From Stramenopiles sp. TOSAG23-6 (taxonomy: Eukaryota; Sar): 29,720 bases of DNA. Below are positions 1 to 23,300 of the stretch, piece after piece. Within the stretch, counting starts at the first letter, position 1, and each line of letters opens with the position of its first letter. Below the pieces are notes generated by a model. The model ran no database searches. It worked only from the letters and a program-made list of their open reading frames with translations, and was not told the DNA's origin. Location of the stretch: positions 1 through 29,720 of the forward strand of contig LT635969.1 of the NCBI GenBank assembly GCA_900128565.1, written 5' to 3'. The position numbers were made by a program, and so were the translations under genes.

Positions 1-54
1 GTACGAAATTTTGTACCTAACGATTTTTTTTTGAAATATTTTTCCAAAATACAT
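1..54 (+). other. Introner-like intron, 3' part (cut by window edge)
   Basis: The window opens inside an intron of the USP gene. Seen: the core GTACGAAATTTTGTAC followed by CTAAC at 1-21, a T tract, then a 3' segment ending CCAAAATACAT. The same 3' segment, from the T tract to ACAT, closes the introns at 1000-1110 and 26569-26669 on the other strand. The exon is taken to begin at 55 because every related intron here ends in CAT or AT. The 5' half lies outside the window, so the junction cannot be tested by frame. A conventional AG end at 61-62 or 69-70 is also possible. Confidence 0.7.
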
Positions 55-518: not shown

Positions 519-594
519 TCCGCATTCATAATTTTTTTTGTTAGGTACAAAATTTGGTACAAACAAATGAATTCAAAATACGCTGTTACGAATT

Positions 595-600
595 AATAAA
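595..600 (+). promoter_or_regulatory. Candidate polyadenylation signal of the USP gene
   Basis: AATAAA lies 77 nt after the USP stop codon. The position is plausible, but the motif is common by chance in AT-rich DNA. Confidence 0.35.
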
Positions 601-627
601 TGAATTTTAATGAACTCAAGTGATCAT

Positions 628-633
628 TTTATT
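628..633 (-). promoter_or_regulatory. Candidate polyadenylation signal of the MSS51-like gene
   Basis: TTTATT on the plus strand reads AATAAA on the minus strand, about 57 nt after the MSS51-like stop. If both this and the signal at 595-600 are used, the two convergent transcripts overlap. Confidence 0.3.
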
Positions 634-690
634 GTTACTATTTTTTTTTTATAGTAGTAAATTTTCAAATTTTGTACCAAAAAAACGAAT

Positions 691-1818
691 TTAATTTTTT
701 TTTCCAGTACCTTTTCTTGCTAATCCGTATATTGCCCAATTTCTCTGAATATATCGAATGGATCCAACCGTACTGTTTGTAGTTGTTGGCACAATGTCAT
801 ACCCAATATTCTTAAACACATTTAGTTCTGGTTGTATCACTATTTCAATATCATTTCTTTCATTTTGAGATTCGTAAAGGTCATTTGAATATTTATTTGA
901 ATAATTCTTTGAATATTTATCGTCTAATGCTACATCTATTTCATTCACAAAGCCCGAAGATTTCAGCATTGTAAGATCTGCATTTAGGTCTATAGCGTCA
1001 TGTATTTTGGAAAAATATTTCAAAAAAAAATCTAAAAAAAATGTTAGGTACAAAATTTCGTACGAAAAAATAAATTCGATTTTTTGTTTAAAAAAAAAAA
1101 TAAAACGTACATACGCCGTGAGAAAAACAGGACAAAAAGTTTTTTTTTTGAATATACAATCTAGACTTTCTTTCCAGCCCTTTGTATGTGCTGGATGTGC
1201 TAAACCTGGGTTTAACAGGAAAACAGCATCTGCTTCTTCTTTTTGAAATATTTCATGATATACACCTGTGTGATACTCAACGCTGACGCCTCTTCCAGTG
1301 CTTTCATCTTCTTGCAATGACTTAGTACCTATTGGAACTTGCGGTCCTATAACACGTATATGTAAAGGCTGATTTGGCTTACATAATGAAAGGCGTAACT
1401 CGCGCCATACCCAAAGTGGGGCTAGTGCTTCCGCGCGAGCCCCTACGATATCTATTCGTATAACTGTGTGGTGCTTTGTATTAACCACACGAGGAAAGAT
1501 GTTAGCAATGGTCAGTGAATATGTTAAATAGGCAGACAGCTGACGGCCCATTGAACTTTCCGAAGTAACTGAGAAGCCACGACGTCGAAAGAAATTGTCC
1601 CAAGAAGGTGTTTCAGACACGAGTTCTTGTTTGGACAGGGACGCGACAGGAATCTTCATTTGCTTGGCTCGGAAATTTGCATCTTCTGCAAAAATGGAAG
1701 AGGCAAGTGCCACCGAAATATCCTCATGATTATTTACTAAAGCTGAAACACCTGGAACAGAGGATTTTGATAGGGTTGATATCAATCTTCTCGCGGTATG
1801 TGATGCACTTGATAGCAT
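691..1818 (-). CDS. MSS51-like C-terminal domain protein, probably mitochondrial (two exons: 1818-1111 and 999-691)
   Basis: The protein is about 338 residues after removal of the 111-nt intron. The first ATG of the frame is at 1818. Its N-terminus, MLSSASHTARRLISTLSKSS, is rich in Ser, Arg and hydroxyl residues with few acids, like a mitochondrial presequence. The body matches the C-terminal domain found in MSS51 and many MYND-type proteins: an RVIGPQVP strand, NPGLAHPAHTKGW, then PVFLTAY joined across the intron to DAIDLNADLTML. In the family this reads TA(Y/F)...DL..DL..L, which fixes the splice junction. Yeast MSS51 acts in COX1 expression. Here the N-terminal Cys-rich MYND finger is absent, so that role cannot be assumed. 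The intron length is a multiple of three and contains no stop, so an unspliced message would also stay open. Confidence 0.8.
   Translation of the reverse strand: MLSSASHTARRLISTLSKSSVPGVSALVNNHEDISVALASSIFAEDANFRAKQMKIPVASLSKQELVSETPSWDNFFRRRGFSVTSESSMGRQLSAYLTYSLTIANIFPRVVNTKHHTVIRIDIVGARAEALAPLWVWRELRLSLCKPNQPLHIRVIGPQVPIGTKSLQEDESTGRGVSVEYHTGVYHEIFQKEEADAVFLLNPGLAHPAHTKGWKESLDCIFKKKTFCPVFLTAYVRFIFFFKQKIEFIFSYEILYLTFFLDFFLKYFSKIHDAIDLNADLTMLKSSGFVNEIDVALDDKYSKNYSNKYSNDLYESQNERNDIEIVIQPELNVFKNIGYDIVPTTTNSTVGSIRYIQRNWAIYGLARKGTGKKN
1000..1110 (-). other. Introner-like intron with GT...AT ends in the MSS51-like gene
   Basis: On the minus strand the exon ends ACGGCGTAT and the intron starts GTACGTTTTATT. 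It contains the core GTACGAAATTTTGTACCTAAC (1043-1063) and ends CCAAAATACAT before GACGCTATAG. Joining at these points gives TAY-DAIDLNADL, matching the family with no gap. No GT...AG pair near the element keeps the frame: the nearest AG (CTATAG) needs one extra exon base and none of the GT choices supplies it. The junction can slide by one base because G occurs on both sides. Confidence 0.8.
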
Positions 1819-2126
1819 GATCAATACTTCATATTCGTTTTGTTTGCTCGTTGTTGTTACTACTATATTTAAGTACCTATAATTATAGCCTAGAGGTGGT
1901 GACGTAAACTAAATTTGTACTGACAGACACCAGCAGCCGACCGGCTAATAAATACCGGTACCCGCCCCACTCGAAGCTACTTGACTGCGACTGGTGTGGA
2001 GTATTGAAAAGGTATTCGCTTTCTTATTACATTTTTTCAGTCAATATTTTCCTCTGTTGAGCAGTAAAATTTTCATACAAATGGTACAATAAAATAGGAA
2101 TACAACAATTAAAATCAATAAATACT
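1819..2126. other. Intergenic region upstream of the MSS51-like gene
   Basis: No gene is supported here. On the minus strand an AT-rich stretch with TATAATTATA and TTAAATATAG lies roughly 45-70 nt upstream of the MSS51-like ATG and could hold its promoter. A small GC-rich island at about 1925-2000 contains ACCGG(10 nt)CCGGT, a short inverted repeat at 1940-1959. The rest is AT-rich 3' flank of the small minus-strand gene. Confidence 0.4.
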
Positions 2127-2438
2127 TTAATCATCATCATTTCGAGTTGAATTTCTATCCCTATCAAATGTAACACGCTTTTTACCCCAGCGGCCTTCAA
2201 ACACTGCAATTATACCATAATCATTTCCTGTATGTTCCTCGAAACGTCGTTTGCCTTGAAGTATAGCGAGGCAGCAAAATACACCTGCCGCAGTTACGCC
2301 TAAACTCATTGTATCACCACTGCTACTGCCCTTGTTACTACTGCTATTACTCAAATATTTTTGCTTGAGGTGGTGTTGTGCAGGTTGCCGTAAAATCCAC
2401 GGAGTGCATACCCTTCGATACACAAACATACTCACCAT
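2127..2438 (-). CDS. Hypothetical small protein, possibly mitochondrial, one hydrophobic segment
   Basis: A 103-residue ORF with an ATG start and a TAA stop. I do not recognise it. The N-terminal third is basic and Ser/Gln-rich without acids (MVSMFVYRRVCTPWILRQ), like a mitochondrial presequence. One hydrophobic segment follows (SLGVTAAGVFCCLAIL), then a charged tail with GNDYGIIAVFEGRWGKKR and an Asp-rich end. This layout suggests a single-pass mitochondrial inner-membrane subunit, but that is inference. It sits between the MSS51-like gene (same strand) and the divergent transporter. Its frame is free of stops over the full length and its composition looks protein-like. There is no homology evidence. 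Confidence 0.5.
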   Translation of the reverse strand: MVSMFVYRRVCTPWILRQPAQHHLKQKYLSNSSSNKGSSSGDTMSLGVTAAGVFCCLAILQGKRRFEEHTGNDYGIIAVFEGRWGKKRVTFDRDRNSTRNDDD

Positions 2439-2774
2439 ATATCTCTCACTTGTGATCTCGTCGACTTGCTTTGTACAATATGATAGCTAGCTAGGTCTTA
2501 CTCTAGTAGCCACTGACACAAACATCGAAATGACATGGAAAGTTTGGAAACGCGAAACAACGTGGCAATAAAAACACACGTGTCACGGTGACCGGTGAAG
2601 CGAAAAAATCGAAAACAATCAATCAATAATTTCATTTGAAACAAAAAAGCGAAAAATAATTCCACAGAACGATAAAGAAACAATTTCAGCTTTTATCAGT
2701 ATTCTAAATTGATAAATAAATGAATGCTGAATGAGATGCGTTTGCCGCAATTAAATTAGTTGATATAGTAGTAA
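2439..2774. promoter_or_regulatory. Divergent intergenic region, candidate bidirectional promoter
   Basis: This 336-nt gap separates the small minus-strand gene from the plus-strand transporter, so both promoters should be here. Seen: the palindrome TAGCTAGCTA near 2481-2490, a CACGTG box at 2577-2582 within ACACGTGT, and immediately after it the inverted repeat GTCACGGTGAC (2582-2592). These are typical shapes for bZIP/bHLH sites, but no binding can be claimed. A short minus-strand frame at 2498-2683 has no recognisable product. Confidence 0.35.
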
Positions 2775-5306
2775 ATGTTTGGATATTACGATAAAGATTG
2801 GACCGTGGTCACCGATGCTTCAGTTTTCCTCGTAGTCGCTTGTGCAATAATCAACTGTCTTCGTTGGATAAAGCGTGGAACTATTCATCCTAATAGAAAT
2901 CGCAAATCACAAAGAGAGCATAATAGTCTATTGCTACGATATATTTTTCCATTTTTATGCTTTAAGGGTGCTGATTGGCTACAAGGTGCATATTTCTATG
3001 AAGTTTATGCTTCCAAAAACCTAAGTGATAGTGAAATTGCTATATTGTTTTTATATGGATTTGGTGCATCTGCTATTCTTGGACCTGTTGTTGGTGTGTG
3101 TGTAGACATTTTGGGTCGGAAAAACGGATGTATCGCATACTGCTTTTTTTCTATATTTGCCGCTTTCAGTACACATTTTCAATCGTATACAGTTCTTGTA
3201 ATTGGGAGATTCTGTGGTGGAACAGCCTCCTCGATCCTTCACTCGGCTCCAGAGGCTTGGCTTGTTGCAGAGCATAGTAAAGCTGTGCGAAACAAAAAGG
3301 TTGCAACAGATGGTTCAGCGTTGCAATCGGCATTAACGTGGTCGCATTTTGGTAATGGAGTTGTCGCTATTGTAGCAGGGCACGTTTTCATCATAAATTT
3401 CAAATTTATTTATTTTTACAATGAAAATTCTGTACCTAACAAATTTCGAATGTAACATTTTATTTCACAACACATGCAAATTTCTTCAAGTGCAGAAATG
3501 CATTTTGGACCTTCTGGTCCTTTTCTTGCCTCCGTTGTTGTCTCTTTGTTAGGCGCGACGATTGCAACATGCTTATGGGAAGAGAATTATGTATATTTTT
3601 ATCATTCATTTTTTAACTAAATATTTTTTATAGGAAATTTTGTACCTAACAATTTTTTTTTACGAAAAAAAAAAAAAAATATATTTTTTACAATTCATGG
3701 AAAGAACGTTGATATAGATCAAACTATACATATCGTCGGTGAACTTAGTACCACATCCAACACATCCAAATATAAAATAACTGAGACGAAAGATAAACTG
3801 AAACAATCTTCACCTCAGCAAAATAATACTCATTGCTCTCGTATGTGTTCATCATGAATTTTTTTTTTTTTGGTTTCGTACGAAATTTTGTACTTAAGAT
3901 TATTTTTTTTGAAATACTTTTTTCACAATACATGTGATGTCCTCCAAAAAATTACTTTCAGAACTCTAGCTGTACTTTCTGAAGGAATCGAAAAGATATC
4001 AATTACAGTTGACCTTGTGTTAAATGATTCACACATATTCGCAGTTGGTGTAGTTCAAGCCTTTACTGAAGCATCGATGTATATATGTTTTCATCATTCA
4101 GTTCAAATAGTTTCTTTTGGTACAAAATTTTGTACCTTTAAATTTTTTTTTTTTAAAGTGTTTTTTTTATATACGTTTTCATTATTGATTTCGATTTTTT
4201 TATACCAATTTCTTTAGCAAACTTCAAAAATATATTTCACTATAAAATATGTTTTATTTTTTTTCAATTTCGAATTTTTTTTAGTACGAAATTTCGTACC
4301 TAACAAATTTTACAAAAAAAAATATTTTCTCACTATATATATGTTTGTTGTAATGTGGGGATCAGCTGTGAAAAAAGTGTCTAATTACGAGTCTACAATG
4401 AAAGAGACTACTCCAGTGAAAATTCCATTTGGTACGTTTTCATTTGAATTTCAAATTTATTTTTTTTTCATAGAAAATTCTGTACCTAACAAATTTGAAA
4501 CTTGAAACGTAAAATGTATTTTTTGTCCAACATGTGATTTATTCTCGTGTTACATGCTTTCTTGTATGCTTGGTTCAAGTATTCTGGCATTGCTTTGCGC
4601 TCGTGTTTCTACGACCAAGACAGGTATAAGTGGGAAAACATTTAATAATGAGAGTAATGTCAAATTAATTCTCAAAGTGATATGTTCACCAATGTTCTAT
4701 TGTACGAAAAAACTCTCTAACATATTTGCTTGTAGTATTTTTTGTGATAGATTATTAGAATGGTTATTACTAATTTCGCTTATAGTGGCGAGCATTGTAC
4801 TGATGCTTAGTGCAGCTATTGTTAATAGCACACAACCGGGTGCCTTCCCTTATATCACCGAAATCTTTAATAATATACCTGGCACAAATCTAAGGAATGC
4901 ACGAATAGTCGGATCAAGTACAGGAAGAACGGGTCATCTTTTGATATGTTTCTTTATTTTTGAGGGAACAATTGGTTTATTTTGGCCTGCCATTAGCATG
5001 TTAAGAGCAAAATATCTTCCCAATACTTGTCGATCAGCAGCCATGACTTTATTTCGTGTTCCGCTCAATATAATGGTTATGGGTGTGTCCATTGGTACAC
5101 GATATCTCGGTACTGATGGCGCATTAGCCTGTGCAGCAATTACTTCATCATTTGGTGTCATAGCACAACTTTATCTTCTATTTTTAACTATATTTCATAA
5201 ATCAAGAGAGGAATCCCGAGTGATAGTAAAGAATGTGAATGATGGTAGCAAAATGAAAAAGAATATACATGGTACTACTGCAACAAAAACAATCAAGCAA
5301 GAGTAA
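2775..5306 (+). CDS. MFSD5-like molybdate/anion transporter (major facilitator superfamily), six exons
   Basis: Exons: 2775-3379, 3476-3590, 3699-3840, 3934-4078, 4337-4431 and 4534-5306. The joined length is 1875 nt, a multiple of three, giving 624 residues. Seen: KGADWLQGAYFYEVY and a membrane pair with the MFS motif-A form GVCVDILGRKNGC. These are followed by VIGRFCGGTASSILHS, APEAWLVAEHSK, and GPSGPF and WEENYG at exon joins. A hydrophilic Thr/Ser/Lys-rich central loop leads to VVQAFTEAS and FVVMWGS, then SCMLGSS and FEGTIGLFWPAISMLRAKY, and finally RVPLNIMVMG. These blocks occur in this order in MFSD5/MOT2-type transporters, which import molybdate in algae. Homology spacing places the junctions next to the introner elements. 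The 3' end meets the giant gene tail to tail. Confidence 0.88.
3380..3475 (+). other. Introner-like intron 1 of the transporter (GC...AT)
   Basis: The exon ends GTAGCAGG, the intron opens GCACGTTTTCATCATAAA, and it carries a degraded core, GAAAATTCTGTACCTAAC, before ending CACAACACAT. The next exon starts G CAA ATT. It belongs to the same subfamily as 4432-4533. A GC...AG reading that ends at TTCAAG (3490) also keeps the frame but removes five residues before GPSGPF, where relatives are longer. Confidence 0.65.
3591..3698 (+). other. Introner-like intron 2 of the transporter (GT...AT)
   Basis: The exon ends in codon TAT, the intron starts GTATATTTTTATC and includes GGAAATTTTGTACCTAAC (3633-3650), a T tract and an A tract, and ends ACAATTCAT. 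The next exon, GGAAAGAAC, gives WEENYGKN; the Gly after ENY is usual in the family. A GT...AG reading ending at 3704 would also be in frame but would lose that Gly and the Lys. Confidence 0.65.
3841..3933 (+). other. Introner-like intron 3 of the transporter (GT...AT)
   Basis: The exon ends TCTC, the intron opens GTATGTGTTCATC and carries GTACGAAATTTTGTACTTAAG at 3878-3898 (branch-like CTAAC changed to TTAAG). It ends TTTTGAAATACTTTTTTCACAATACAT. A conventional alternative exists: GTGTTC at 3845 to TTTCAG at 3962 is also in frame and has a good polypyrimidine tract. The AT end is therefore favoured only by family resemblance. Confidence 0.55.
4079..4342 (+). other. Composite introner-like intron 4 of the transporter
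   Basis: About 258 nt separate EAS from FVVMWGS, which are nearly adjacent in the family. Two palindromic cores are present (4120-4140 and the perfect 16-nt palindrome at 4284-4299 followed by CTAAC). Element-like 5' ends occur near 4087, 4174 and 4251. The last is nearly identical over some 25 nt to the 5' end of the giant-gene intron. TATATAT on both sides leaves the exact ends open: 4079-4336 gives GT...AT, and 4085-4342 is equally in frame. No AG in the right place preserves FVVMW. Confidence 0.65.
4432..4533 (+). other. Introner-like intron 5 of the transporter (GT...AT)
   Basis: The exon ends CCATTTG, the intron opens GTACGTTTTCATTTGAATTTC, carries GAAAATTCTGTACCTAAC (4473-4490), and ends TTGTCCAACAT. 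The next exon, GTGATTTATTC, gives FGDLFSCYMLSCMLGSS, matching the family. The first AG usable as an acceptor is far inside this conserved block, so a GT...AG intron would delete it. This is one of the strongest cases for a non-AG 3' end. Confidence 0.78.
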
Positions 5307-5318
5307 TAACAATTAAAC

Positions 5319-5324
5319 TTTATT
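5319..5324 (-). promoter_or_regulatory. Candidate polyadenylation signal of the giant gene
   Basis: On the minus strand AATAAA lies 16 nt after the giant gene's stop codon, inside the 34-nt gap to the stop of the convergent transporter gene. Confidence 0.4.
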
Positions 5325-5340
5325 ATATACAAATTTTCTA

Positions 5341-8300
5341 TTATATTACATATGTGCTATCCTTTTTATAATCTGCAACACCTGCTGTATGAATATCTAC
5401 CTTCTCTGTACTATCGTTGTCATTTCCCTGTTCAGGGCCGCCGACATCCGATGTTTTTCCAGGGTCACTGTTATATAATTTTTCCACTTGATTAATCGAA
5501 CTCCACACAGCCCTCTCCTGGGGTTTAATCCCATGAGATCTACATACTTTACAGTATTTTTCGTATCCCATGTCACTAATCAGTTTTTTAGATGCACCAC
5601 TAAATTTTCTTGATAGAGACTTCTTCTTGTCAATTCGTCTGTTTGGCATTTTACACATCGGAATTCCATGAGTTTCTTTATCATTCCTTTGTGTATCATC
5701 CATATAAAACTCTACTGGAACCGTATCAACACGCTCCCAAGACATATACAAAATCACACGTCCATTTCGAGTCTTTTTCAAAGGGAATCCCTTCCTATTA
5801 GTCAATTGGAATGCTTTAGGAATTGGAGATCCCAAACCACTTCGAAGGATATTTCCTAAATCGTCCTTTGTTTCCGTCATGCGCACACTAAAACATCCGA
5901 TGAAATCATCAGATTTTCTTTTGTCTTTATCCCACACTGTAACAAATATTTCTGGGCATGCTAACATCTGGTCTGGGTCAGTAATATGGAAATAAAACAC
6001 CTCAGACCAATTTGGATGAGATGAATTATTGATCGTTTTAGATCTGCCACGTTGCTTTGAAGTAGCAGCATGACGCATGTCCTCAAAAGAAAGGCCCGTG
6101 TCACTCTCACTCAGCAAAATTTCACAATAACCATCGGATAAAGTTGTTAAATCCTTTTTCGGTAAATTTTCTGCACGGATTAATGTAATCTTACACCAAT
6201 CGCCTAATTTATTCTTCTCCGCTCCATTTAATTCATCGTCGTCAAACAAACCTATTGGTACAACTTTGTTGCGTTTCGCATAGTCTGTTGACATTCGGCG
6301 CATATGGTGTCTTTGATTGGACATTTTCTTATCGATAATTCCGAGTTCCTTCATTCTTCGTTCTCTATTGAAAAGACGTCGTTCCTTATTAATGCGACCA
6401 TTATAACAACAACCACAACACATCTTTCCAATACAACCACCACAACATAAACCAAACAAAGAAAGTACAATAAGAGCACTGATATCAGACTTGTCCGCGC
6501 TATAAGCTGACCAAAATCCAATTCCAGCGAAACATAATCCTAAAATAACACCCGTTGCTTTTTGACAATTTTTCTTCCTGCGAAGAACTGTCGATGATGC
6601 ATTGAATGAAGTCTTTCCGTGTTTTGCTTCCCACTCCCTAACCTTCAATTTTATCAATGTGTCTTGTTTTTTTCCATAATACTTCTTAGCCCAACCAGCT
6701 GACAAACGGGTTCCCATTGCAATTCCCACAAAAATTCCAAATATAGAAGCTATAGATCCCACCGAGCTTCCTAAAAAAGCTCCAAAGCAACAACCAAACG
6801 CAGCACCAGCAACAGTAGCAAGCTGAATACCGTCATCACGTTTCCTATTGAATATTCTGCGCTCTTCGCCTTCTAACTCGGTTGGCATATCGTTCTTGTC
6901 CTTCACTTGCAAGGCTTTCTGAGCTTCACGTTTCTTCTTCTTTATGTCATCCAACTTTTTATGACATAATTCTAATTCTTTCTTAGTTGCTTTTGCTTCT
7001 CCCCATAACTCATACCAGGAGTGGGCAAGTATCAACACTGTACAAGCTACAACAATAAATGTAACGTATGTGACAATTGATTTTACTGATTCTTTTTCCC
7101 CTTTTTCTAAATTATCACCTGACACTTTGAGTATAAGTGCCATGAGAACTACAAGGAAAATGTGTGCATTCCCAACAATCGATATAACAAAAGTAGTGTA
7201 ATCATTATACGGTTGAATAACACACGTGATTAGTGTAAAAATAAATGTTGCAACTAAGGTGGCTAGAGCACGACCCACAGGTCCGTCATGTACTGTGAGC
7301 AAACCAGCAGTGAGTATAAGCTTTTGAAACATCATCATGAACTCAAACCACCACTTGTCAGAAAGGTAATCTTCAAATATTCTGCCATAACGGCGCTGTA
7401 AAAGCAAATAAACACTATCTTTGAGCAACTCTGGGTTTCTCTTTTCGGCTTCCTCCAATGGCATAAGTTTAGCTCTATCTTTCCAAAGCATTATAATATA
7501 TATCAATGGTATACCGATAACATATACAAACATTCCAAAGATACCGATGCCCATCATAACCTTGTGCTTACCTTCATAACACTCGATTGACATGTCCACA
7601 CGAAGCCAGTACTCACCTTCGACTTCAACACATTGGAAAATCTGGAATAATTTCATTCCTAGTGATGGGTAAAGTAAAAATGTGAGAATGTTCACGAGTT
7701 TAACTATTCTATCTCCAACAGATAATCCGCTATATTGCAAACGAAATCTTTTCTGGATATGACAAGCTACGTGTAACGATTCCCAAAGGTGGCCAAATTG
7801 GAACAAAATAAATGAGATGATAACAGTCAATAACAAATACATGGGTAAAATACCACAAGTAACAATGAAATTTTGTTCGAATGAAATGATTGCTTGGCAA
7901 GACTCAAAGAAATTAAAAATACCACCAACATCCAAATTCACAAGTTTCATAGCACCAAATATATTTCTAATACTATCTGGCCATTCAACATCAATTAAAC
8001 TGGGAATATTTGATAGAATTTGTAAATATCCGACAATCACCATTAATTGGCCGACAAATTTTCTAGACAACTCTGACATTACTATAGCAAGTTTACGGAT
8101 AGACGACTTTACTTCATCTATCACATCAGCAAGTTCGGGCAAACCTCCCATATCTTCCATACTCATGGATGCAGAAAATTCAACCTCTGTTAATGCCATG
8201 CCACCACGCATAATTGCATCTTCCATTAGAACTTGTTCACCAGATGCTGGGCGAGATAAATAGTATACCAATGAAATTGTAAAAAATACAAACAGTAACG

Positions 8301-11300
8301 CGACAGAAGTCCAAACTAGTGCTTCTTGTCGCTCACCTGAGCACATCTTACAAGCACCAGAAGAATCCATAAACCAAGGTCCTGGTTCACACCAACCACA
8401 CAGGGGACCAGTACTGCCTTTCCTACATTGCTCAGGAGTAAATGTTAGATTCAATGGATTTAGAGCAATAATTTCACTTGGGGTGATACCTCTACATTGG
8501 CCTAAAACAATGCAAGAATATAAATCTGTTGAATTATTTGCGGGTCTCCAAAAGTTTTCTTTCACTATTATTTCATCACCATTTACACATACACCTCCAT
8601 TAGGACATTTATTACAAATCGCTTCACCAGTTTTGTTTGTCGCCATATGTCCTGTCAGTCGCGACCAAGAGTACCTTCCTGGTGTACACATATAGCACTC
8701 ATTGCTTCCCCTATCTTTAGTGTAGTAACCCCTGGCACATTCTTCACATGAATTCGCAGCTTCGGAACTTGAGAAGGTCATTTCTGGACACATCTCGCAC
8801 TCACTTGAGGATGCTATTTTGGCATATTTACCTGGGCTACAGCCAAAACACTCCTTTAAACCCTTTGTAAGCCCATAGCGTCCAGGTAAACAATTTTTAC
8901 ATTTGCTTTCTCCAATTTTATCTTGAAATGTTCCTTCAGCACACTCATTGCATGCTTCTGAGCCTTCAGTGTTTGTAAATTTGCCAAAATCACATTTATT
9001 GCATTCTATTTGACCTTCAACATCAATAAATCTTCCTGTGGCACATTTCGAACATGTTTCTTTGCCTGTATTAGATTGATGCGTCCCTTTCGGACACATC
9101 TCACAATTAATCGTACCTTCTGCCGAAGCAAATTTTCCCGCAGCACAATCCCAGCACGAATCTTTTCCTGTGGTTGACATATATTTACCCTTGCTACAAT
9201 TCGAGCATATAGATGCCCCTTTCCCTCCGTAATATGTCCCAGCATTACATTCCTTGCACTCGGAAAGACCTTTTATATCGGCATAATTTCCAGGAAGACA
9301 ATCGCGGCATTCTGTCGCAGCAGAACATTCATTGTACTTTCCTGTTTCACATTGAGTGCATTCAGTAGAACCAGTTTCTGGAGCATATACACCATACCCA
9401 CATACTTTACATGCCACTGAGTTTTTTACACCAGTGTAATTTCCAGCATCACAAGCTTTGCATTTGGAAAATCCAATCTTGTCTGCGTAATGTCCCTCTT
9501 CACAATCTTTACATTTTGACATTCCCGTTGTATCGGAGTAGTATCCTGCACTACACGAAGCACATTTTATCATGGAAGATCCAGCCTCACGATAACTACC
9601 CAAATCACATGGTGTACATGCCATCGAAGATCCCCCCACAGAATCACGACCAGCCGCGCACGCAATGCACTCAACCTGAGTAGTAGAATTCGCTTTCAAT
9701 GATAAACGTTCATTTGTTTTACAACTAAGTGCTGTTGTAGTACACGGCCCTCCAAGATCCGATACAGGACTCCATCCATTGAGATTCCTTGCAGAATATC
9801 GAATGTAATATTGTGTACCAGGAACTAGATCTTTCAGGTCCAGAGAGTTAACTGTACCATCTGTTTTTTCTGTTTTTATCGCGTTGAAAGATGCACCAGC
9901 ATTATATTCAATTTTGTACTCCTTAATCGCGTCGCCGCCGTCTTTAGGTGTAACCCATGCTAGCGACATACCTGTAAGCGTTATTTTTGAACACGATGGG
10001 CCCTTTTCTGGTTTCGATGGAATAGTAGAGTCCATACTTACGGAGGATGATAAATTAGAAAACCCTGACCATCCTTTGAAATTATGTGCTCTGACGCGAA
10101 ATCGAATGTTCTTGACACCTCCTAGATCTTCTACAATTCCGATTGATGTCTTCGACTCTTTGATTACTTGAGACCACTGACTGTCTCCATCTGTATATGT
10201 GCACCCGCTAGCGTTGCCACAAAGTGTGCCATCACTTTGCCAATCTGAATGTGTACATGGAATAGCAGAGCAACAAGCTGCGCCCACACAACTTCCGGAA
10301 TTATCCCATGAACAAACTACGGGATTGTCACTTAAACATGCATCTTTATCTGCACCAGTACATGCACTAGTGGCAGACCCGGTGCATTTATTTTCTGGTG
10401 GAGGAGACTTAGTAGTCATATAAACGTCGTAGTAGTCGACCTCGAATCCATTTTCACGTGGTTGATCCCATCCAAGTACCACCATTCCTGACATGAGCAT
10501 TAGTATTTTTGGTGTAATTGCTGGAGTACCGGGTGTAATAACCCAAGATGGTACATCAGCCAATGTCTCAACTGTGGGAGACCATACACTGTACACACTC
10601 GGAAAGTACTGGCTTCCTATTTTATATATAAATCCGACGGCAAATCTGTATCTCTGCCCCGCGAAAAGGCCAGCCACTTGATAATTATCTTTCTGTACTG
10701 ATATGAGAGCCAAATTGGAGAAATTGCAATTAGTAATGAATGTATTACAAGTTCCACTATTGAGAGAACGCGTCTTGATTTTATGTGAGTCCACAAGAGC
10801 TGGTTGTTCAACTTGCCAATTAATCGAAACAAAGGTTGAACCTTTTCGACCTTCTTTGGGAACGCCAGGGACGGGAAGAATGTTGATATAAATCTCATCA
10901 GTACCACCTGCGAAATCATTCGCTGCAATAGACTTAGTAAAGAAGCCTCCTTGGTGTGCTCCCCATAATGCACCATCGTCTCGAATCGATATTTGTGTCT
11001 CACCGTAAAAAGAAATGGAAAGATACCGCGCAGTTGATGCACAAAAGTCCCAGCCGTTTCCTATACGAACAGTGTATGCACACTGACTTGCACTCTTTGG
11101 TAAGTCTTCTGCATTCGCAACATCTTCTAACTGCAACCATGCCCCAAGTTTCACACCGCTAACACTAAATGTTGTTGCATTGTCTACTGGTGTCTGTAAT
11201 GCTTTGCTAAAAGTTGCTTTCATGCTATTGCCATCGTAAGATGCAATTTTTGCAGCCTGAGTGACACCATTGGTGACAAGTGTAATATCTCTACCTACAT

Positions 11301-14300
11301 AAAAGTCAGTCTTTCTACTTGCACCATCTGGTAAATGGGCTTCAGTAGTTGATTCTGATACATTTACTAAAGTCCCTGTATATGATGCTCCATTAGGGGT
11401 ATCACCTGTTTCAAGCAACCAAATACGACCTTGGGATGTAATAAGCATTTGTGGCTCATTTGAGATACTCCCAGTTTTATTCACTTCATCAGCAATTACT
11501 GCAACATCGCCGTCTTTTGTAACACATACCTTCCAATTGCCATGATACGGCGTCCGAAACATTATTGCTTCCATTGTCTCGTCCCTACATTCAGCTTCAG
11601 AAGGCCTATCTCTACGATGCGCACCTGCCGTTGCAACAACTGATTGTGATGCTATGAGTTTCCCTGATTCAGACCCAGCAGAGCGTACCCAGAGACCAAA
11701 GTCGCGCCTAAAAGACATTTTAGTAATTCCATTTCGTTTGAAAGCTAACTCACGAGATTGAGTCGCAACAACTGTCCACACATCATTTGAACCTGCAGCA
11801 AGCGGGTCACTTGGTCCTGAATCTTTGGACGAAGAACCTTGAGTGTTTCCCAATTGATTCGAAAAAGGATTTCCCGAACTGGCAAGCTGCCGGTGCATTG
11901 CATAATGTTGGTCTTTTGTCAATGACTTTGTATACAAAATTCGTCGGTTATGGCGTTGAATTAAATCACGAGGATGAATATTTTCCATAATATCACTGTG
12001 CTCACTCATTTCGCCGTTTACTGAAACTTCCAATGTTTGTACACGACGGCGGCTTTTGCATGCCGATGTTGGACAAACTACACATTGCAATGCTTTGAAT
12101 CTCTCATTTACTAGTGTCTCGGACGAGTCACCAGCTTTAGTTGTCGCTATGAATGAAAGAGCTGAATAATTACTCCCAGTACATCCTGGGTTAGATTGGT
12201 CAGCACAATCGTTGCCCTGCATCGCTTTTCTCGCCTTTACTTCAATAGATTTCTCGTCGAAAGGAACAAAAAGGGCAACGCTAGACCTTAAACTTGCTTT
12301 CATTGTGTCATCAAAATTAGCATAAGGCATCTGAAATAAACAAGTAAATTCAACAATTTTAATATTGGAGTCGACAACTGTAATTTGAACAGAGTTCATG
12401 GCCAAAATATTACTATTATGGTCAAAAGCCTTCGCTGTTACAGACAGTTGGCCCGTTTTTGGGCCAAAAAGAATTGTTCCTTCTTCAAATGAAAATGATA
12501 CATTTCCTGCTATATCTTGTGCTGTATCACCCGGCGACCCTGTACCATCTGAGCGACCAAGAGTCACTGTCAATTTACCATTATTATTAGATCTGTCTTT
12601 TATTGCAAGACCTTTTGCATCAATCTTAACACCACTATCATCCGGATATTGACCACCTGGAATGGTGAACTCAATTGCGCTACCCACCCGCAATGATACT
12701 GGTGTCGTAAATGAGAAATCCAAAGCAGGTTTTGATTTCTGTACGACATTCTTCTGCTTGACATTAAAATCTCCTAATGGGGGTACTAAAATAAAATCAA
12801 ATTTACCTGAAAACATTACTTCGGTGTCCTTCTTTATGGCAAGAATACAATGCATTGTCCCGGCGTACTCGCCTAACTTAATGACCCCTTCGGGAATAAT
12901 GAGAGTAGCATCACCCGCTTTGCTCTGTTCAGATGAAACTGTCAATTTTAAAGTATGATCTGAAAAATTTGCAGAATCAATATTTTCAGAATCAATTTGA
13001 AATAGAGTATCTGTGATACTTTCGTCATTCGGATGTTTTATAACAAATCCATTTTTTGTAGTTTTTCTACTGATTCTCGACCCAACTACTGCCTCAGGAA
13101 TAAATATTTCAATAATCCATGTAGACTTCACTACACTAGGTGTGGTAAAAGTAATTTCCATCGATGGTTCTGTCTTAATTATTAAAGCTTCGGGTACAAC
13201 GGAAACGCCAGATAGTTTTTCAGCCGCCACAGTAATATTACCCACTTGCCATTTAAATGATGAATTTCCTACAATACTCATACATAGAATCCAATCTCCG
13301 CCTTTTTCGAGATTAAATTTCACGTTAATGCTATTTTTCTCGCTATTTACTTCGTTATTTATAGAAACTGGGTTAATGTAGTCCACATGTTTATTTGTAT
13401 CATCAAGCACCGAAGCATCATTTTTATTTGCTGTGCTTGTGGAACATGTAACATTACTGCCAGCTTGTAATGGTAATGCAATTAATAGAGAATTTTGCGT
13501 CAGGGCTACACCTTCGATATTAATATCAAAAAGTGTACCCTTGGTACCAGTGAACTGCTGGTTCAGAGCCGGTCCAGCAACAACTACTTTGCCAACAAGA
13601 AACATCTGTTTTTCAGTTTCAGATCGTATAAAGCAAACTCTGTATATACCAGGCTTTTCCACAGAAAATGAAGACCACATTAGACTATTTCCAATAATAG
13701 TTGGTATTGCATTGATGCCCTTAACGACATCTGTAATAAAAGTGGTGATACCAAAAACACATGCATCGGCACGGGTTAATTTTAACATAAAACCGTCACC
13801 ACCATACGTAGCCCAATTGCTTTGATTCAGATCGTTACCCGTGAGTGTATACTTTTTTACTTCGTTTGGCGTCGTTTGGAAACTTTGGTTAATATGTAAT
13901 CCCGAAGCCTGAACTTTGCCAATTTTTTCATATTTTGTGGTTTCATCAGACTGAAAACAAAGTGAGAATACATAAGTATTAGAACTAAGCGGAATTAACA
14001 CATTATACCATGTCAGTTGCGATTTGTCACTTTGAAGTTGGGGTGTAACTGAATTAGTTATTCCTGCTACTTCCACAACATTTCCACCTTCACAATTGTC
14101 TTGTTCCAAGACAAGTTTAATTTTCGAAATGTTTTTTAGATTAATTCCCTTGATATAAAGATTTCCAGGAATACCGGCATCCAGTCGAAATACTTGTCCA
14201 ACAAAAGGGCCGGCTACAACTAAATCGCCAACTTTCATAGAATAATCAGGAAGAGTTTTATTGGGAGCAAAGCACAATGAATAATCGCCACTAATATCTG

Positions 14301-17300
14301 CTTTAACAGAACCCCAAAGTAAACGATCTCCACCTCCAGTTTTCGAATTAGGTATTTTTACTTCTGTCGGTACTGTATTGGATAAACCGGAAATGTGTTT
14401 TGAATTTACAGCTGTCGCTGAACACGGACCATCAACAGCTATAAGTGCCGACTTGTTAACATCCATTCCATATCCATTCAATTCAACTTTACCAGAAACA
14501 CCTTTTGTGAGAGTAGGTTTCTGATCGGTTGAAGGTCCTTTGATAAGCAGTTGTCCTATATTATTCGAAAATGTTCGAGCACCATTATCTGCAAACGGAG
14601 AAAAACAAACAATATACCATCCGGCGCTCGGTACGATGACAGTCTTCCAAGACACTGCCTCGCCTGCAGCAACTGCAGCAACTTCTTCTGGGGGGCACTG
14701 AAGACCTTTAATGGTCGGATCGTTTCTTGAGTTTTTTTCACAAGAACGATTTGCGTTATCATTAGAAAGAATGGCTACTCTGGTTTCCGATGTTAAACCT
14801 ACACCATCTATACGTAATACGCTTGGTGTGTTTACATTAAGTTGAAAATTTGGTTCATCTCCATTTTTATCATCGTTGGCTTTTGCTGTAACATTTATGC
14901 GTATTGGTACAACATCAGAGCCCCCGGCGTTTTTCACTGTTACAATATATACATTAGTACTACTCAAAGAATTTGGAGTTCCCGATATAGTTCCTGTAAT
15001 CGAATGCAATGTCAGACCAGTAGGTAATGATGGCGCAATGCTATACGTCAGAGGATAATCACTAGTCACTGTAGGTGTAGTACCATTATATATTTCAGTC
15101 CTCGTTAATGTCAATAATTTATGCAAACATGCATCTTTATCGCTGATACTCACATCAGAACATGTCCCACTTTGCCACGTATGATTTGTTTTGAGATTAT
15201 ACGATAGATTTTCGGGTGGTGGAACTTTATCTAATGTGACGTTGTTTCCAATATCACTTAATATATTAGATGGCAGGCTTTTCAACTTTTCAGTAGGTGT
15301 TTTGTAGAAATGTTCACCTATTTTATTTTGAATGGCATTTGCGTCTTCAATATTTCTTGCTGCAATCTCATAGTATACAATATCACTTGAAATTGCGGAA
15401 AAACTAGTAATAATGTCTGGTAAAATACTAAATTCTTGGCCTAGAGCTTCCTTCAATACATTTCTCACTGTAGGATGGTTATTGAAAGTAGTAGATTTTT
15501 GAACATCCTGTACTAGTACTGGTATCGACACATATACTGGTTTTTCAAATTTGACATCAGGAGTTGGGGTTTTCACAGCAGTTGCAAGGTTTTTAAAAAT
15601 ATTGGTAAGGCGCGTATAAAAATCTTCTTGATCTCGTTTTGTAGAAATTGCGGCAAGAGAATTGTAATCCGATAAAATATCATACAGTAACAAACCACTA
15701 CCTTTTTTTTCACCATCAGTCACTACAAGATTTTGAACCTGTGACGGCTTTGAATCGACACCATCATCATTATGTACCTTTACTATAGAGCTACGGATTA
15801 TTTCATCCCATTCCTTCATGAAATTTCTGTATCCAAGTACAGTGAGTATGGTTGAATAACGGGAATAGAAAAGGGGTGTAAAGGAAACCAACGAGTAATT
15901 ACTCTCAGATGCCATCATTTTTGTAATATAACTCGAACTAACTGATGAATAAAATAGTGCTGAACTTGCCAAACTTGTTAAAGTGCTATTGACACTTTCG
16001 AGGAGTGTCAGTGTTGCTGCGCCTATTAAGACTCTAATGACATCACCAGACGGTGACGCCGCCCCACCATAACGCACGTCTAATGCTTGAACATCCCCTT
16101 TTTGTTTAAGTTCGTCTGTAATACTTTGAAGTAGTACATTCTTTTCTTTTGTGTTAATAGTACCCTCTTGAATAGTTAGCCCAATTGCAACTGCATATAC
16201 TCTAGACGTGTATAAGTCACAATGAGTGGTTTTGGCAGCCAATCCATCCGCACATATCTTTGGTGACTCTATTTCAATGTCAGGTTCAGTACCATTATCG
16301 ATACTGAATAAAAGCGTATGCTCAACATTCTGCTCAAAGCCAATGTCTCCAAAACTAACGACGCCTTCTACAGCTGTTTTCTTAAGTGTTCCCTTCAGTG
16401 ACCCCTCCCCTGACTCAATTTGAACTTCAACATCATTATTAAATTTCTTAACTACATTTCCTCCAGCATCAACAACAGAGACGATTGGTGTAATATCAAA
16501 CGTGATGCCACTTCCGCGTGCATTTTTTGGAATATTCATAATATTCAGGGTATGAGGTGGTCCCTCAACGACGTTAAATGAAGCCGATAATTGATCCTCA
16601 ATGGTACCCTTGACATCAATGGTTGCAACAGCTTTAATTTTATACCCAGTACCAATTTTATCTATAGATAATTTATCTGAACTATCAAAAGAAACCTTGC
16701 CCTGAACAGCTTCTTTCTTGACAGAAGCGTTTCCATTCAAAAAGAGACTTGCCTGAGTATCCCCATCGCTTACAAGCGACAAAGTTACAAAATTTCCAGA
16801 TCCGTTCAATGAAGTCACAATATTTTCACCTTGATCGCGTATAACGAATGTGGGATGTTCAGATGAATTGAAAACCGAACCTCCCTCCAAATCACCTGTT
16901 GGCATTCCAGATAAAATATGAAGGGTTGCAGGTGCTCCTATGCTAACTTCCATTTCATTCGAAACAACCGTAATTTTATTAGATCCTACTTCAATTGATG
17001 CAGTAAAAGTGTAAGTACCGACTTTCTGTATCACGACGCCGCTCCAAATGGCCCTACCACCTTCAGCTTTAATAACCTTTATCTCTTTCTCACCATCCGG
17101 ACCATATTCTAACTTTACATCACCTGTATATGTCGATACTAAATTCCCTCCTGTATCAAGGACGATCACTGAAGGTTGTTGTCTTAAAACTTCACCACCA
17201 AAAGAATTCCCAGGTTGTGTAATGAAAGCAATACTTGCAGGGACCCCAATTGTCACTTCAATTTTATTAGAGAGATTTGTAAATTTTGCATCCTCTTGGC

Positions 17301-20300
17301 CACTAGCTTGTTTCACAACGGCAGTCGCTTGTAGTTGATAAGTACCTGCAGTATTAATATTCAGATTTGAAAATTTTACGTCACCATTTACTGCTTTAAT
17401 CGAAACTGTTCCATTCAATGGTTCATTGTTTGCATAAATTGAGAGCGTTACTGTTGCATCTATATCATTATCTGTACAAATATTTTGTTCGGCATCTAAA
17501 ATCTCAATTTCTGGTTGAGTTTGAAATACGATACCACCAACAGCGCCCGAAGGTTGTGTTTTAAATTGTATCATTGCAGGTATGCCTTTCGTATCAGTCA
17601 CACATTTAAAAGGATTTGAGGTTGTAGAAATTAAATTATCACTTACTAACGAGAACTTTAACGCATAAGATCCTTCTTCACTGATTGAGAGATCCGTAAA
17701 TGTTGCCAGTCCGTCACTTAATGATTGTGTTTGTGCTCCACTTAATTTATTTGAAGGAATAGTACTATCCGAAAATTCAACTTTTATACTTCCAGAATTT
17801 GTAATGATGTTTCCTCCTTTATCCTTGAGTAAAACTTTCGGCTGTTGAAGAAATACATACGCTACTTTCGCGGCCCCTGGTTGTTGTGTAAGTGACAGCG
17901 AGTGTGGTGTTCCAGCGGCTACATTAAAAGTATCCGAATTCACTAATTTTGGCAAGTCTTCCATATACGCCTGAAGTTGGTAATTGTCATTTTTCTTGTC
18001 GACATGAAGATCATCAAAACTGACAGAACCGTTTGAATCGAGATCTTTCTGACTTGTCCCGGAGAGTGTTGCACCCGAGTGTTGACCATCTTTTTTTAGA
18101 GAGATGTGGACTTTACCTTCAAAACCTTTTACGGCATTTCCACCCGCATCATGCACTTCCAATTTTACTGGGGTTGCAAACGTTTCTGTGGATGTTACAT
18201 TGTAGGGTTGAGTAGTAAACAAAAGTGTTGCAGGAGGGCCGATTGCACAATTAAACTTTTCTGAAATAGCTTGAAAGGTATTAGACGTTATCCGTATTTT
18301 GTAATCGTTTGATGTATTTATTGTGATTGTTACCCCGTTGCTGGGTTTAAATTCTGCTTTTCCATTTTGAAATGATATTTGTTTTATTCCTACTAGTTGC
18401 TCTTCATTGTAGCTTTCGCATGATTCGATTGTATTTTTCTCACCACAAAGCTTTAGTGAAACAGAATCATTGTATGACTGCACAATATTACCACCAGCAT
18501 CAACCATACGCATGGAAAACATCTCCATTGTTTTAGCAGCGACAACATCCTTTGGCTGTTCTGTAAATTCAATTGCCGCAGCTGAACCATGTGTAACTTG
18601 TACCTCGACATAATTGCTCAGAATAATATTACCTGTACCAGATACCGCTTTTACATGCATTTGGTGTTTTCCTTCTAAATTAATTTTGATATCGCTCCAT
18701 GTACCGTTTCCGCTTTGAACCTTGACGGTTTTTGTACCCAACATTTCCCCCTGACCAGTATGAATAAGTTCCATTGTCCCGGAGTATTGATCTACAAGGT
18801 TCATTCCCAAATCATACACTTTTGCTGTAGGCTGAGGAGACAAGAGAGATCCGCCAGTAGACGATGTTTTAATATTTTCATTGAGTTTTATAGTGTGTCC
18901 CGGACCAATATCCACAGTAAATTCATTAGAAAATGTAGAAATTGAACATTTTTCATCGATAATTTCTGTGTCTTTTCCCAAATTACTATACAATGGAGGT
19001 GTTTGAATATTGCACAATATGGCTTCCAGTCTATATTTTCCAAATTTATCAATAGTAAGATCACTGGAGCTAAAATCTGCGATACCTTTATCTGTAACTT
19101 TATTAAAATATTTTGCAGAGAGCGCTGCATTATTTGCACCTGGAGGTTTAATCCGGATAATAATATCCTTTGGGGCGCTATTCTGAACAAGGTTTCCACC
19201 TTTATCTTTCATTTTCACCACAGGCATGACACCAAACGTTTGCCCACCTAGTGAAACTCCAACAGAAGGTTGCTGTGTAAATAAAATACTATGTACTTCT
19301 CCTTCATCTACACGAATTTCACTGGAGACTGCAGATATGTCACATCCTTTGTTGGATAAAACCTTACTTCCAAGTAGATACTCCCCTCTAGTATTAAGAA
19401 TGAGGTTTTGGAAATGAGCAACGCCATTTGAAGCCTGCATAGTTATGGTATTTTCCATTTTGCCAGATACAAGTACACCAGGTCCTGCATTTTTGAAGAT
19501 CTCAATATTATCATTATAATTTGTATCGATATTCCCACCCGCATCGCGAACTATAACTTTAAGTTCAAATGTTTCCCCACCAGAAGTATCTGTTGGTACT
19601 TCATCGAAAAGTAATTCATCCGATGGTGAGAGATGAACTTCGAAAGACTTTGAAATGTCATACAAAGATACAACATTGCCATTTGGATCCTCAAAGACCA
19701 ACGATGCATAGAGTTGATATTCACCAATCTTATCAATAGCAAGGTCAGCCCACGCAGCTTTGCCATTCACAAAAACAATTGTCTTTGTGCTTGAGTTAGA
19801 CAAATCACCTTTACCTGATAAAGTAGCTACTTTGTGCTTTCGAATACTGACACTTCCAGAAAATGTTGTGACAGTATTTCCCCCATTATCAACAACTCGA
19901 ATGATAGGTTGTTGACCGAATGAGGTACCACCAAGTGCATCATCAGGATGAAGTACAAACTCCATCTTTACAGGTGTATCACTTGCACATGGGGTAGCGG
20001 GGTCGGAATCACCATCGCGATAACCTATAGGGCATTTAGCAGCTGGAGCAGATCCACCCGAGCAATATTCCCCTACCATGCATTCTAAACAGCTATCAGC
20101 ATTCCCATCTGTTGGTGGCTGTGCGCGATCTTTTTTACCAGGAGGGCAGGACACACAATTAGTCTCCCCTTCTTGGAATTTTCCATACACACAATCAGTA
20201 CATTCTGTAGATCCTTTATCAGAAACTCTACCCACGGGGCATGTTTCGCAATTAGTTGCTGTAGGAGATTTATATTTTCCAGCAGCACATATTTTACAAT

Positions 20301-23300
20301 CACCTATTGCTCCTTCTTCATTTACGTGACCATCAAGACATTGCAAACACTTTTGTGAGTCGATATCTGCAACAGTATTCACCGGACATGATCTACAACC
20401 GTCTTTTCCAAAACTACCAGGGTCTGATACCTTACCAATGTCGCATTTCACACAAGCGCGTTCAGAAGATAAAGCAACATTATTATCATAATAGCCTTTC
20501 AAACACTTATCACACTGTGTAGATGCAGCTTGTGTACTAACTTCCCCAGGCGGACACCTTTTACATTCATTACTTTCCTCGTAAGTTCCTGCTTCACATG
20601 GATGACACATTACGGCACTTTCTTGAGATATATATCCAGGAGGACACTGTTGACAAGTACTAGCAGATGATGCATCTGTATCAGCTGAGCCAGCGGGGCA
20701 CGTTTTTTTTACAGTCCCTCCACCAGGGCAAAATGTACCACCTTCGCATGCCTCGCATGTCCATACACCATTATCAACAACCCACGTACCACCCGCGTCA
20801 CATACTACAGGTGTACCAAATGCTCCACCACATACCCATCCTTTTTGGCATTCCTGGCACATTGTAGCAGGATTAAAGTCGTGATCGTATGTACCAGGAA
20901 GACAATACTCAACTTGATTGTCTCCTCCTGAACAATAAGAACCAATAGGACAGTTTTGACATTCAGTCTTTGGATCCAAGTCATGATCACTTGTACCTTT
21001 TGGGCAGTTAGATGGGCCAGGAACTAATGATTTTTTAATTTTACATATTGTATGTGATTGTTGAGCGCCAGAATTTCCAGAAGTAAGACATCCATTGAAG
21101 CACTTGTTAAATTCCTTCATGAGATCAACACAAGTATCCAAATGTTCACAAGGAAGGTGAGGAATTTCGCCATTTTCTGCTTTATCGAATTCTAGTAACT
21201 GTGCTTCACAATCGTTATCGTTGTTACAATTAACTCGTTGATCATAACATGTATCAGTTTGCGTCTTACCAAGACACTTATTATTTGAGCTTGGTGGTGT
21301 TTTACAATCTGATAAACCAGATTTATCACCACAAAAATCTGCTTTCAAAGGATGACCCAAAGTAATACTATCATTTTTACTCAATATTTGACAATAATAT
21401 ACGTTGCTACTGTCTTCAAAACCAGTGTAGCCTACACAATCCTCTAAAGTTTCACAAAAACATTCACACATAGTACTGTCAAAATTTTGCCATGTTTGTG
21501 TTTCTACACAACTTTTGTACACCTGGCCAAATGAATCGCCATATGAATCGCCATATGAATCGCCATTATCTGTATTTTTGTTACCTTCTGTTCCATTAAT
21601 TTCAAGTGTAAATTCTCCCCGGATTACACACGACAATGTTGGAGCATCCTCGAATGTACTTGCTGGTAAAGAAGAATCATAACTTGGATTTGGATTACAA
21701 TACGTACCAGAGGTACATTTCACACATGCTGTCGTCGTACTCGGAGAAAAACCTGTTATAGTATTTGTTTTCCAATCATGATCCCATGATCCATTTTCTC
21801 CACAATCTACTTTGGGATTATTCTCACCAGGACAATATTCACCAACGATACAACTAATACAATGATCATTAGAAAAATATTTACCTAAAGGACATTCATA
21901 ACATGGCGTGTCACTTTCACTATCGTGGTCTACTGTACCTTGTTGACATTTGCATGTTTCAAGTGTATCTCCAGAACACTTACTTCCACCGGGGCAGAAA
22001 TAGCCGCTCGGACAAGGTTTACACACTGTGATGGGTGAAGCATCATCGTCATATTCACCAGCATTACATGGATTCATTTCAGTATTACAGTTATCAATAT
22101 TTTTCCAATCCGGATTATTTACAAGACATTTATGATTTTCTGGTCCTTGACAAAATGAACCGGCAGGACAGACTAAACAAGCTGTTTCAGTATTTGAATC
22201 ATGGTCATATGTCCCGACTGGGCATACTATAGGCTCCATTGACTGGGATGGGCAATGAGTTCCTGTTGGACATGTAATGCAAGGTTCGGATGGATCGACA
22301 GAAAATTCATTTGTTCCACATTTATGAGGTTCGTTATCACCACCAGAACAATATTCACCTTTATCACATGCAATACATTCAGTCGTACTGTCTTTGTCAT
22401 CGTCCCACGTACCAGGAAGACATGTTGATAATGGGGAGTCGCCACCAGGGCAAAATTCTCCTGTTGTGCATGGTATACACGGAGTATTTGTACCATATCC
22501 TAATGCTTTGCCTTCATTTGATTCAGGCGTAGTGCATCCAGGGAATGAATGTGTATTGATCCATTCTAAGGCATCAGAATTGCAACTATCCGATCCAATC
22601 ATTGATCGTAATTTTTTAACGCAGTCACAAGATAAGTACGTAAATAATTCATCTCTAGCTTCTGGGCATATTTTAGATTCTTGTAGAGAATAATATGTAT
22701 TCCAAATACATTGTGGTGGTCCCATGCCACATGTGGGAAACTCGCAATTTTCCCATATTGGAATTCCGTTCGAATTATGACCCACAACACACCCAGGAAT
22801 GTCGGACTCAGGACGACTGGAAGTACATCGTTCATATGTATTCCCAGCAAACTTGAATGGAAAAGTGCACTGATGTCCATTTCGTGCACCAAATGTATCA
22901 ATTGTGTGACATGTAGTATCAATATCAACAATTGATTCTTCAGAACGAGAATAAATATTAAAACCCGTATTATACTCGACTTTGAAACAACCCGTTGTCG
23001 GGTCAGGAGATTGGGGAATCCCAATCATTGGACTTGGATCCGTACAATCTGATGTCTGGTACAATTGAAGTTGATTTGAAAGAATTTTAACGAAATATGG
23101 TACTGATTCTCCAGTAGAGAGCGTAATCTGTGTACAATTTGGTTCAACATTAGAACCAAAGACATAAAAATAGGGTGTGACATTATCCTGACACTCTTTT
23201 TCAGTATTCCAAGACCTAGAACGAATAAGCTTTTCCTGTTCTTCTTCAAAACTGACAATTTGATTACAATTTCCGCTGCCACAACATTCCAATTTTATAC

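Follow-up and report, generated by a model that had tools for sequence, protein, structure and literature searches.

Why do genes on contig LT635969.1 of Stramenopiles sp. TOSAG23-6 (assembly GCA_900128565.1) appear to be interrupted by short, similar segments that end in AT rather than AG, and what removes them? The stretch analysed covers positions 1 to 29,720 of the forward strand (29,720 nucleotides, hereafter the window). A preliminary description, made from these letters alone, had read segments of an MSS51-like gene, a transporter gene and a giant gene as one family of introns with GT/GC...AT ends and a single common boundary, and had proposed either a new intron class or a modified 3′ splice-site rule. 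We find that the segments belong to a genome-wide repeat family, and the explanation we favour, to which we give a probability of roughly three in four, is that they are introner elements with a non-canonical 3′ splice site, mostly AT, that derives from the insertion itself.

The core of the element (TACGAAATTTNGTACCTAAC, up to two mismatches) had 1,193 forward and 1,092 reverse matches in the incomplete assembly (408 contigs, 8,027,113 bases; the window is its contig C19), a total of 2,285 that overstates the number of independent copies because some contigs look mirrored or duplicated. The same pattern read backwards gave no match on either strand. No exact core match was found in a viral or a prokaryotic contig collection, and phage records searched with positions 1–8000 of the window gave no match. 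Element positions are mirrored internally in contigs C2 and C27 and repeated in C13/C14, as amplification palindromes or duplicated contigs would give. Sequence was read for the window, 24 regions (265,708 bases) and loci around HSP70 genes, and the final copy set came from 280,600 bases; 14 of the 24 regions were chosen for contigs with elements in the core listing, so the sample is not random and its densities are not representative. Intron ends were tabulated for a blind set of 121 copies, delimited without using the last two intron bases or the first, since an earlier boundary finder, whose matrix included the final dinucleotide, leaned towards AT (103 of 124 copies, against 97 of 121 in the blind set). 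The short-intron family described for the window is thus real and genome-wide, and its named junctions are present in the sequence.

Summarised in a position matrix, 110 copies have the 5′ consensus (A)(T)|GTAYGTTTT and, at the 3′ end, YCAMAATAYAT|G preceded by a T-rich stretch. In between, a central palindrome-like block runs into the branch-point-like AAATTTYGTACCTAAC, with T-runs after it; the near-invariance of the CTAAC must be read in the light of its having belonged to the search pattern, in which up to three mismatches were allowed. Terminal inverted repeats occur in some of the known introner families; the consensus ends here, GTAtGTTTT and GTATTgTGa (reverse-complemented), have only their first four bases in common. 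In the blind set the median intron length is 100 nt and the median distance from the branch A to the 3′ end is 41 nt (5th–95th percentile, 33–53 nt). The first intron base is G in 103 copies, A in 10, T in 7 and C in 1, and the first dinucleotide is GT in 98. The last two bases are AT in 97 copies, GT in 8, AG in 5, TT in 4, AA and AC in 2 each, and TG, TA and CT in 1 each. Genome-wide, the pattern TTTTTCCAAAATACNNG had ATG after TTTTTCCAAAATAC in 89 of the 100 matches listed, out of 292 that include mirrored contigs. The ends of the family are therefore mostly GT...AT, much as first described, but AT is not a fixed terminal signal, and transporter intron 4, to which a G(T/C) start had been assigned, starts with AT when aligned to the family.

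The elements lie in coding sequence in one orientation. Scoring the coding potential of the flanks of 118 copies found 103 in the orientation of the coding sequence and 1 against it (3 were ambiguous, 8 lacked a coding flank and 3 were not scored); in the blind set the corresponding counts were 101 and 1, with 4 ambiguous, 13 with neither strand coding and 2 with short flanks. Similar copies at intron positions in unrelated genes are what introners show. Removal from GT to AT kept 56 of 59 copies with confident frames in frame, and 53 of the 56 testable blind-set copies (binomial p = 4e-22 against 1/3), with all three intron phases in use (21, 19 and 16). The resulting proteins are colinear with their homologues: alignments are gap-free at 12 junctions, namely three in urocanase, three in RecQ (the ATVAFGMG motif among them), one in a CHD1-like remodeller (at ADEM|GLGKT), two in a HACL2-like lyase and three in HSP70, junction positions having been checked within the RecQ, HACL2-like, CHD1-like and urocanase proteins. 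Spliced across its three junctions, the urocanase matches a structurally solved urocanate hydratase (6uek) with 922 bits, and the HSP70 gene, all three of whose introns are elements, reaches 774 bits against a heat shock cognate protein. In the HSP70 relatives P0132 and P0133 (69 and 73% identical), HEVVLVGG and IPPMLRGVPQ match the spliced product exactly, while the first junction reads RALSSSTQ or RSLSSTTQ (S/A and T/S changes). Within the window, the Pfam model MSS51_C scores 78.8 bits with the MSS51-like intron spliced and 71.1 with it kept, and MFS_5 rises from 124.5 bits for the first transporter exon read into intron 1 to 189.4 for the spliced gene, a gain partly due simply to more sequence. 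As a query, this first exon returned only six relatives, at 40–45% identity.

Where the terminal AT comes from is suggested by the bases just before the 5′ end. In the blind set, position −2 matches the last-but-one intron base of the same copy 86 times (71.4 in shuffles, z 5.5) and position −1 matches the last intron base 103 times (89.9 in shuffles, z 7.2); other positions gave z 2.5 at 0, at most 1.0 at −6 to −3 and at most 1.6 at 1 to 4, and Fisher tests of the duplication signal gave p 6e-5 and 2e-4. The signal is carried by pairs of exon end and intron end other than AT: GT/GT in 6 of 110 copies, AG/AG in 2, AA/AA in 1 and TT/TT in 1. In both AG/AG copies, AG stands where the others have AT, which makes them ordinary GT...AG introns. 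Of the 39 blind-set copies in which the two ends differ, 27 carry AT at the end of the intron alone and 3 at the end of the exon alone, a bias that selection of AT as the 3′ site would produce. We read this pattern as a probable two-nucleotide target-site duplication combined with selection for AT at the intron end. A locus-specific match between 5′ and 3′ bases is a feature of part of the known introner families.

Under the explanation we favour, short, apparently non-autonomous, transposon-like copies would insert in coding sequence and duplicate two target bases, usually AT. The element would supply the 5′ splice site GTAYGT, the branch-point-like block and the T-runs, and the duplicated bases after CAMAATAY would serve as the 3′ splice site, AT in about 80% of cases and AG in a few percent. 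Excision from the transcript would take one copy of the duplication along with the element, most likely through the host spliceosome, which would locate the 3′ end from the branch point, the T-tract and the CAMAATAY context instead of from AG. The spreading route would be DNA transposition.

Could the cut nevertheless lie at a conventional AG, or in another register? No AG occurs between CTAAC and the 3′ end in 81 of 121 copies, nor up to three exon bases further in 80 of 121, and any nearby stop-free, in-frame GT...AG choice exists for only 18 of 53 confident copies, 14 of which alter the number of residues. One family with one relative boundary and usually no usable AG, as had been claimed from the window, is what these counts describe. 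GT–AG splicing at AGs within the element or next to it, the remainder being translated, would account for the TTTAGA/TTTAGG-like AG found after CTAAC in 17 of 125 copies, and public gene models seem to make such choices; yet two such models gain or lose residues relative to homologues at all six junctions compared (three in urocanase, three in HSP70), the AG within the MSS51-like intron is out of frame on our reading, and the 12 gap-free junctions are hard to reconcile with it. Displaced GT–AG sites were accordingly rejected as very improbable. A register two bases to the left is improbable too, though less so. The intron would then run ATGTAYG...AATAC, with AT–AC ends, and the 3′ copy of the duplication would stay in the mRNA, which is the same mRNA whenever the two dinucleotides match; AT does precede the 5′ end in 73 of 121 copies. 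At transporter intron 1, however, MFS_5 scores 140.6 bits in the GC...AT register against 137.3 and 137.0 when shifted by one and two bases, so that the AT–AC register costs 3.6 bits. It also creates a stop codon in one HACL2-like junction, although that junction belongs to a copy with a GG start, and register 0 was the basis of the models, in which register-0 stops could therefore not appear. Moreover, where the ends differ it is mostly the intron, not the exon, that retains AT, AG-ending copies have AG at the AT position, and the U12-type 5′ consensus is lacking. U12-type introns carry a RTATCCTT 5′ site and a branch point 10–20 nt from the end; with GTAYGTTTT at the 5′ end and 33–53 nt from branch to end, they were rejected here. 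On our reading, a conserved F in RecQ speaks against moving the cut to the right. The boundary first proposed is favoured by 3.3–3.6 bits in MFS_5.

As to what removes the elements, the assembly encodes a PRP8 PROCN domain (766.8 bits, E 8.6e-231), a part of the core spliceosome. The copies resemble U2-type introns in their GT 5′ site with the extended consensus GTAYG and in the branch-point-like CTAAC and T-rich tract upstream of the 3′ end, and depart from them at the 3′ end itself. At least two conventional introns, GTAAGT...CAACAG|G, are also present, one in a C2-domain-like gene (on our reading of the translation), the other in a second HSP70 gene, where the exon that follows runs, as translated, into the start of an element. 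These lie on the minus strand of region L036 (C282:1–2151) and on the minus strand of region L016 at 6251–6350; with their GTAAGT starts and common end ACTCAACAG|G, they may represent a second, canonical repeat family. A codon-statistics scan for other introns returned nine GT..YAG candidates, most of them unconvincing. Folding of 112 introns gave a mean z of −0.8 against single-base shuffles, and in 36 of them a base among the first 12 paired with one among the last 15. An RNA hairpin in the palindromic core was rejected, as the central palindrome has no clear covariation (z −0.7 to 2.1 over five pairs). Given PRP8, the conventional introns and folding weak enough to be unlike that of diplonemid introns, a spliceosome with a relaxed 3′ rule is our first choice, and we infer that it removes the elements at the RNA level. 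Removal at the same boundaries without the spliceosome, in which base-paired ends are cut and ligated, has been proposed for non-conventional introns of euglenids and of hemistasiid diplonemids, and suggested also for Amoebophrya; here it is unlikely. In their direct end repeats and non-AG termini the copies recall Amoebophrya introners as described in the available text (PMC7789003), and a third or so of the folded introns do have paired ends; the weak mean folding and the palindrome without clear covariation argue the other way, as do the strong GTAYGT start and nearly invariant CTAAC, which differ from the variable ends given for such introns in the text available. Elimination at the DNA level, as for the internal sequences cut from the somatic genome in ciliates, would suit copies that are short, AT-rich, repeated and precise, with TA near both ends. 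Such elimination should be independent of direction, and nothing at the DNA level explains a sense bias of 101 to 1 among 121 copies; a TA-to-TA cut would add two codons where homologues of HSP70 and RecQ have none (our reading), and near-identical public proteins are labelled MAST-3-like. This possibility was rejected as barely credible.

Several observations weigh against the favoured explanation. The evidence for splicing comes from reading frames and proteins, and 3 of the 56 testable copies lose frame. Exon-end and intron-end dinucleotides are identical in 82 of 121 copies, so that moving the cut one or two bases leftwards leaves the mRNA unchanged and the exact register is partly ambiguous; informative mismatched dinucleotides are few. 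Register −2 is preferred by 0.5 bits in MFS_1, a weaker model, and by 0.8 bits at a second HACL2-like junction, and urocanase residue 204 fits both registers (L or M among homologues). Searches for U6 (Rfam), for U2 and 18S (short patterns) and for U2AF1 (human query) found none of them, a result that is uninformative in an incomplete assembly with no working control; a dinoflagellate spliced-leader pattern likewise had no match under the same limits.

Introners, some of them non-canonical, are already known, and none of the present type was found in the literature searched: the available text of open-licence papers on introners, non-canonical introns and MAST-3 or MAST-3F introns yielded no report of a GT...AT introner family, and the word intron is absent from the main text of two further MAST papers (PMC8163842, PMC12614181). 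What had been offered as a new intron class is thus better seen as an introner family, a known kind, whose 3′ splice site is probably insertion-derived and non-canonical; a modified 3′ splice-site rule, most likely one of the spliceosome, would suit the 5 AG ends among 121. The following comparisons concern the available portions of each source. In Amoebophrya A25 and A120 (Farhat 2021, PMC7789003), non-canonical introners have no clear dinucleotide signature, 8–20 nt inverted repeats able to pair the ends and 3–5 nt direct repeats. They share with the present family repeated introns, boundary direct repeats, mostly non-GT–AG ends and transposon-like spread, and differ from its fixed GTAYGT start, near-invariant CTAAC block, two-nucleotide duplication, mostly AT end and ends paired in only 36 of 112 introns. 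A Chrysochromulina introner type brings a 5′ site of its own and takes the 3′ site from the target duplication (Gozashti 2022, PMC9860276), which resembles the element-borne 5′ site and duplication-formed 3′ site proposed here, as does the unchanged mRNA length of most families in that study; there, GY...AG are the core sites, with rare GC and GA 5′ sites counted, whereas about 80% of the sites recruited here are AT. Introner elements in Micromonas are likewise repeat introns; the paper on them points out that noncanonical splice sites are unusually frequent and argues for a permissive spliceosome, but no GT...AT family is described in that text (PMC3879977). In Fritillaria borealis a divergent U2AF recognises non-canonical 3′ ends; its introns end in AU or AC, and that text does not present them as a GT-starting element in high copy number (PMC13326754). 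Hemistasiid diplonemid introns (PMC12621601) also have non-AG ends and a suspected MITE origin, but highly variable ends, strong pairing and no conserved 5′ site; compared with the non-conventional introns of euglenids and diplonemids, the present copies have a GT start in 98 of 121 and weak folding.

If the favoured explanation holds, a transposon would have made introns without carrying or finding an AG, and the genome would offer a natural experiment in 3′ splice-site choice, with many similar introns varying in their last two bases beside GT–AG introns. A bolder version, which we hold as possible but somewhat doubtful, is that the spliceosome has largely abandoned AG here, the 3′ cut being set by position, with the branch-point block, T-tract and CAMAATAY as landmarks, and any two duplicated bases acting as acceptor, while GT–AG introns are still spliced. 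Were it true, a mobile element would have given rise, in a stramenopile, to a 3′ splice rule largely independent of sequence.

There are consequences for public gene models. The spliced urocanase is 100% identical (rounded) over aligned columns to one EukProt GSMAST32 protein, and the spliced HSP70 is 99% identical to another; the label presumably denotes a Genoscope MAST-3 single-cell assembly, for which PMC5778133 is the likely source. These matches point to a MAST-3 stramenopile, with an assignment to MAST-3F being tentative. The GSMAST32 models are those that disagree with homologues at the six junctions; in P0007 and P0138, pieces are dropped or added at element junctions, and stretches are also lost elsewhere. 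The unusual end signal would explain, the comparison suggests, why the public gene models compared break at element sites, and functional surveys of the GSMAST32 assembly may undercount genes. As far as the available text tells, MAST-3F gave too few complete protein matches to train a gene finder, 2,694 predicted genes and few hydrolases (PMC5778133). Unrecognised introns would produce such a shortage and may lie behind it, and if the organism is MAST-3F, the gene count and the gene losses deduced for it may partly reflect missed introns. For MAST-3A, the same text reports that no full-length dynein heavy-chain gene was found (PMC5778133). In the present assembly, six dynein heavy-chain matches lie in uninterrupted open frames of 4,052–4,688 residues (contigs C6, C7, C11, C87, C96 and C155), which fits MAST-3F better than MAST-3A.

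Features of the window are collected in the table below.

Table. Elements and genes of the window, with positions counted from its first base.
Feature	Positions	Strand	Remarks
Element 3′ part (core, CCTAAC, T-run, AAAATACAT)	1..54	+	in ubiquitin-protease (UCH) gene; 5′ end beyond window; core C19:2-21
Core-like remnant	540..559	-	between convergent UCH and MSS51-like genes; repeat family D5
MSS51-like gene, second exon	691..999	-	
MSS51-like gene intron/element, GTACG...AATACAT	1000..1110	-	core C19:1043-1062 minus
MSS51-like gene, first exon	1111..1818	-	start codon is the analyst's choice
MFS_5 (MFSD5-like) transporter gene, five introns	2775..5306	+	MFS_5 match
Transporter intron 1, GC...AT	3380..3475	+	MFS_5 register scores
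Transporter intron 2, GT...AT	3591..3698	+	
Transporter intron 3, GT...AT	3841..3933	+	
Transporter intron 4, AT...AT reading	4083..4340	+	composite: two cores, further 5′-end-like sequences at ~4171 and ~4247
Transporter intron 5, GT...AT	4432..4533	+	
Giant gene, long 3′ exon	5341..26568	-	C2 and TRP domain matches near C end
Giant gene intron/element, GTATG...AATACAT	26569..26669	-	flanking frames in phase
Giant gene, upstream exon	26670..29720	-	open to window edge

The exon downstream of the element at the window's start has a UCH match of 91.3 bits. Elements can be stacked on, or inserted in, other elements, as in transporter intron 4 and in the introns at protein positions 307 and 373 of region L015, and such composite introns still keep the frame. 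Telomere-like CCCTAACCCTAA stretches lie within or beside some copies (region L026 at about 5891–5970, plus strand; region L017 at about 7372 and 9926, minus strand). The giant gene (5341–29720) comprises an open frame of 7,085 residues, about ten of them from the element, and, upstream, an exon coding for 1,017 residues or more; it has cysteine-rich stretches and is interrupted by one element.

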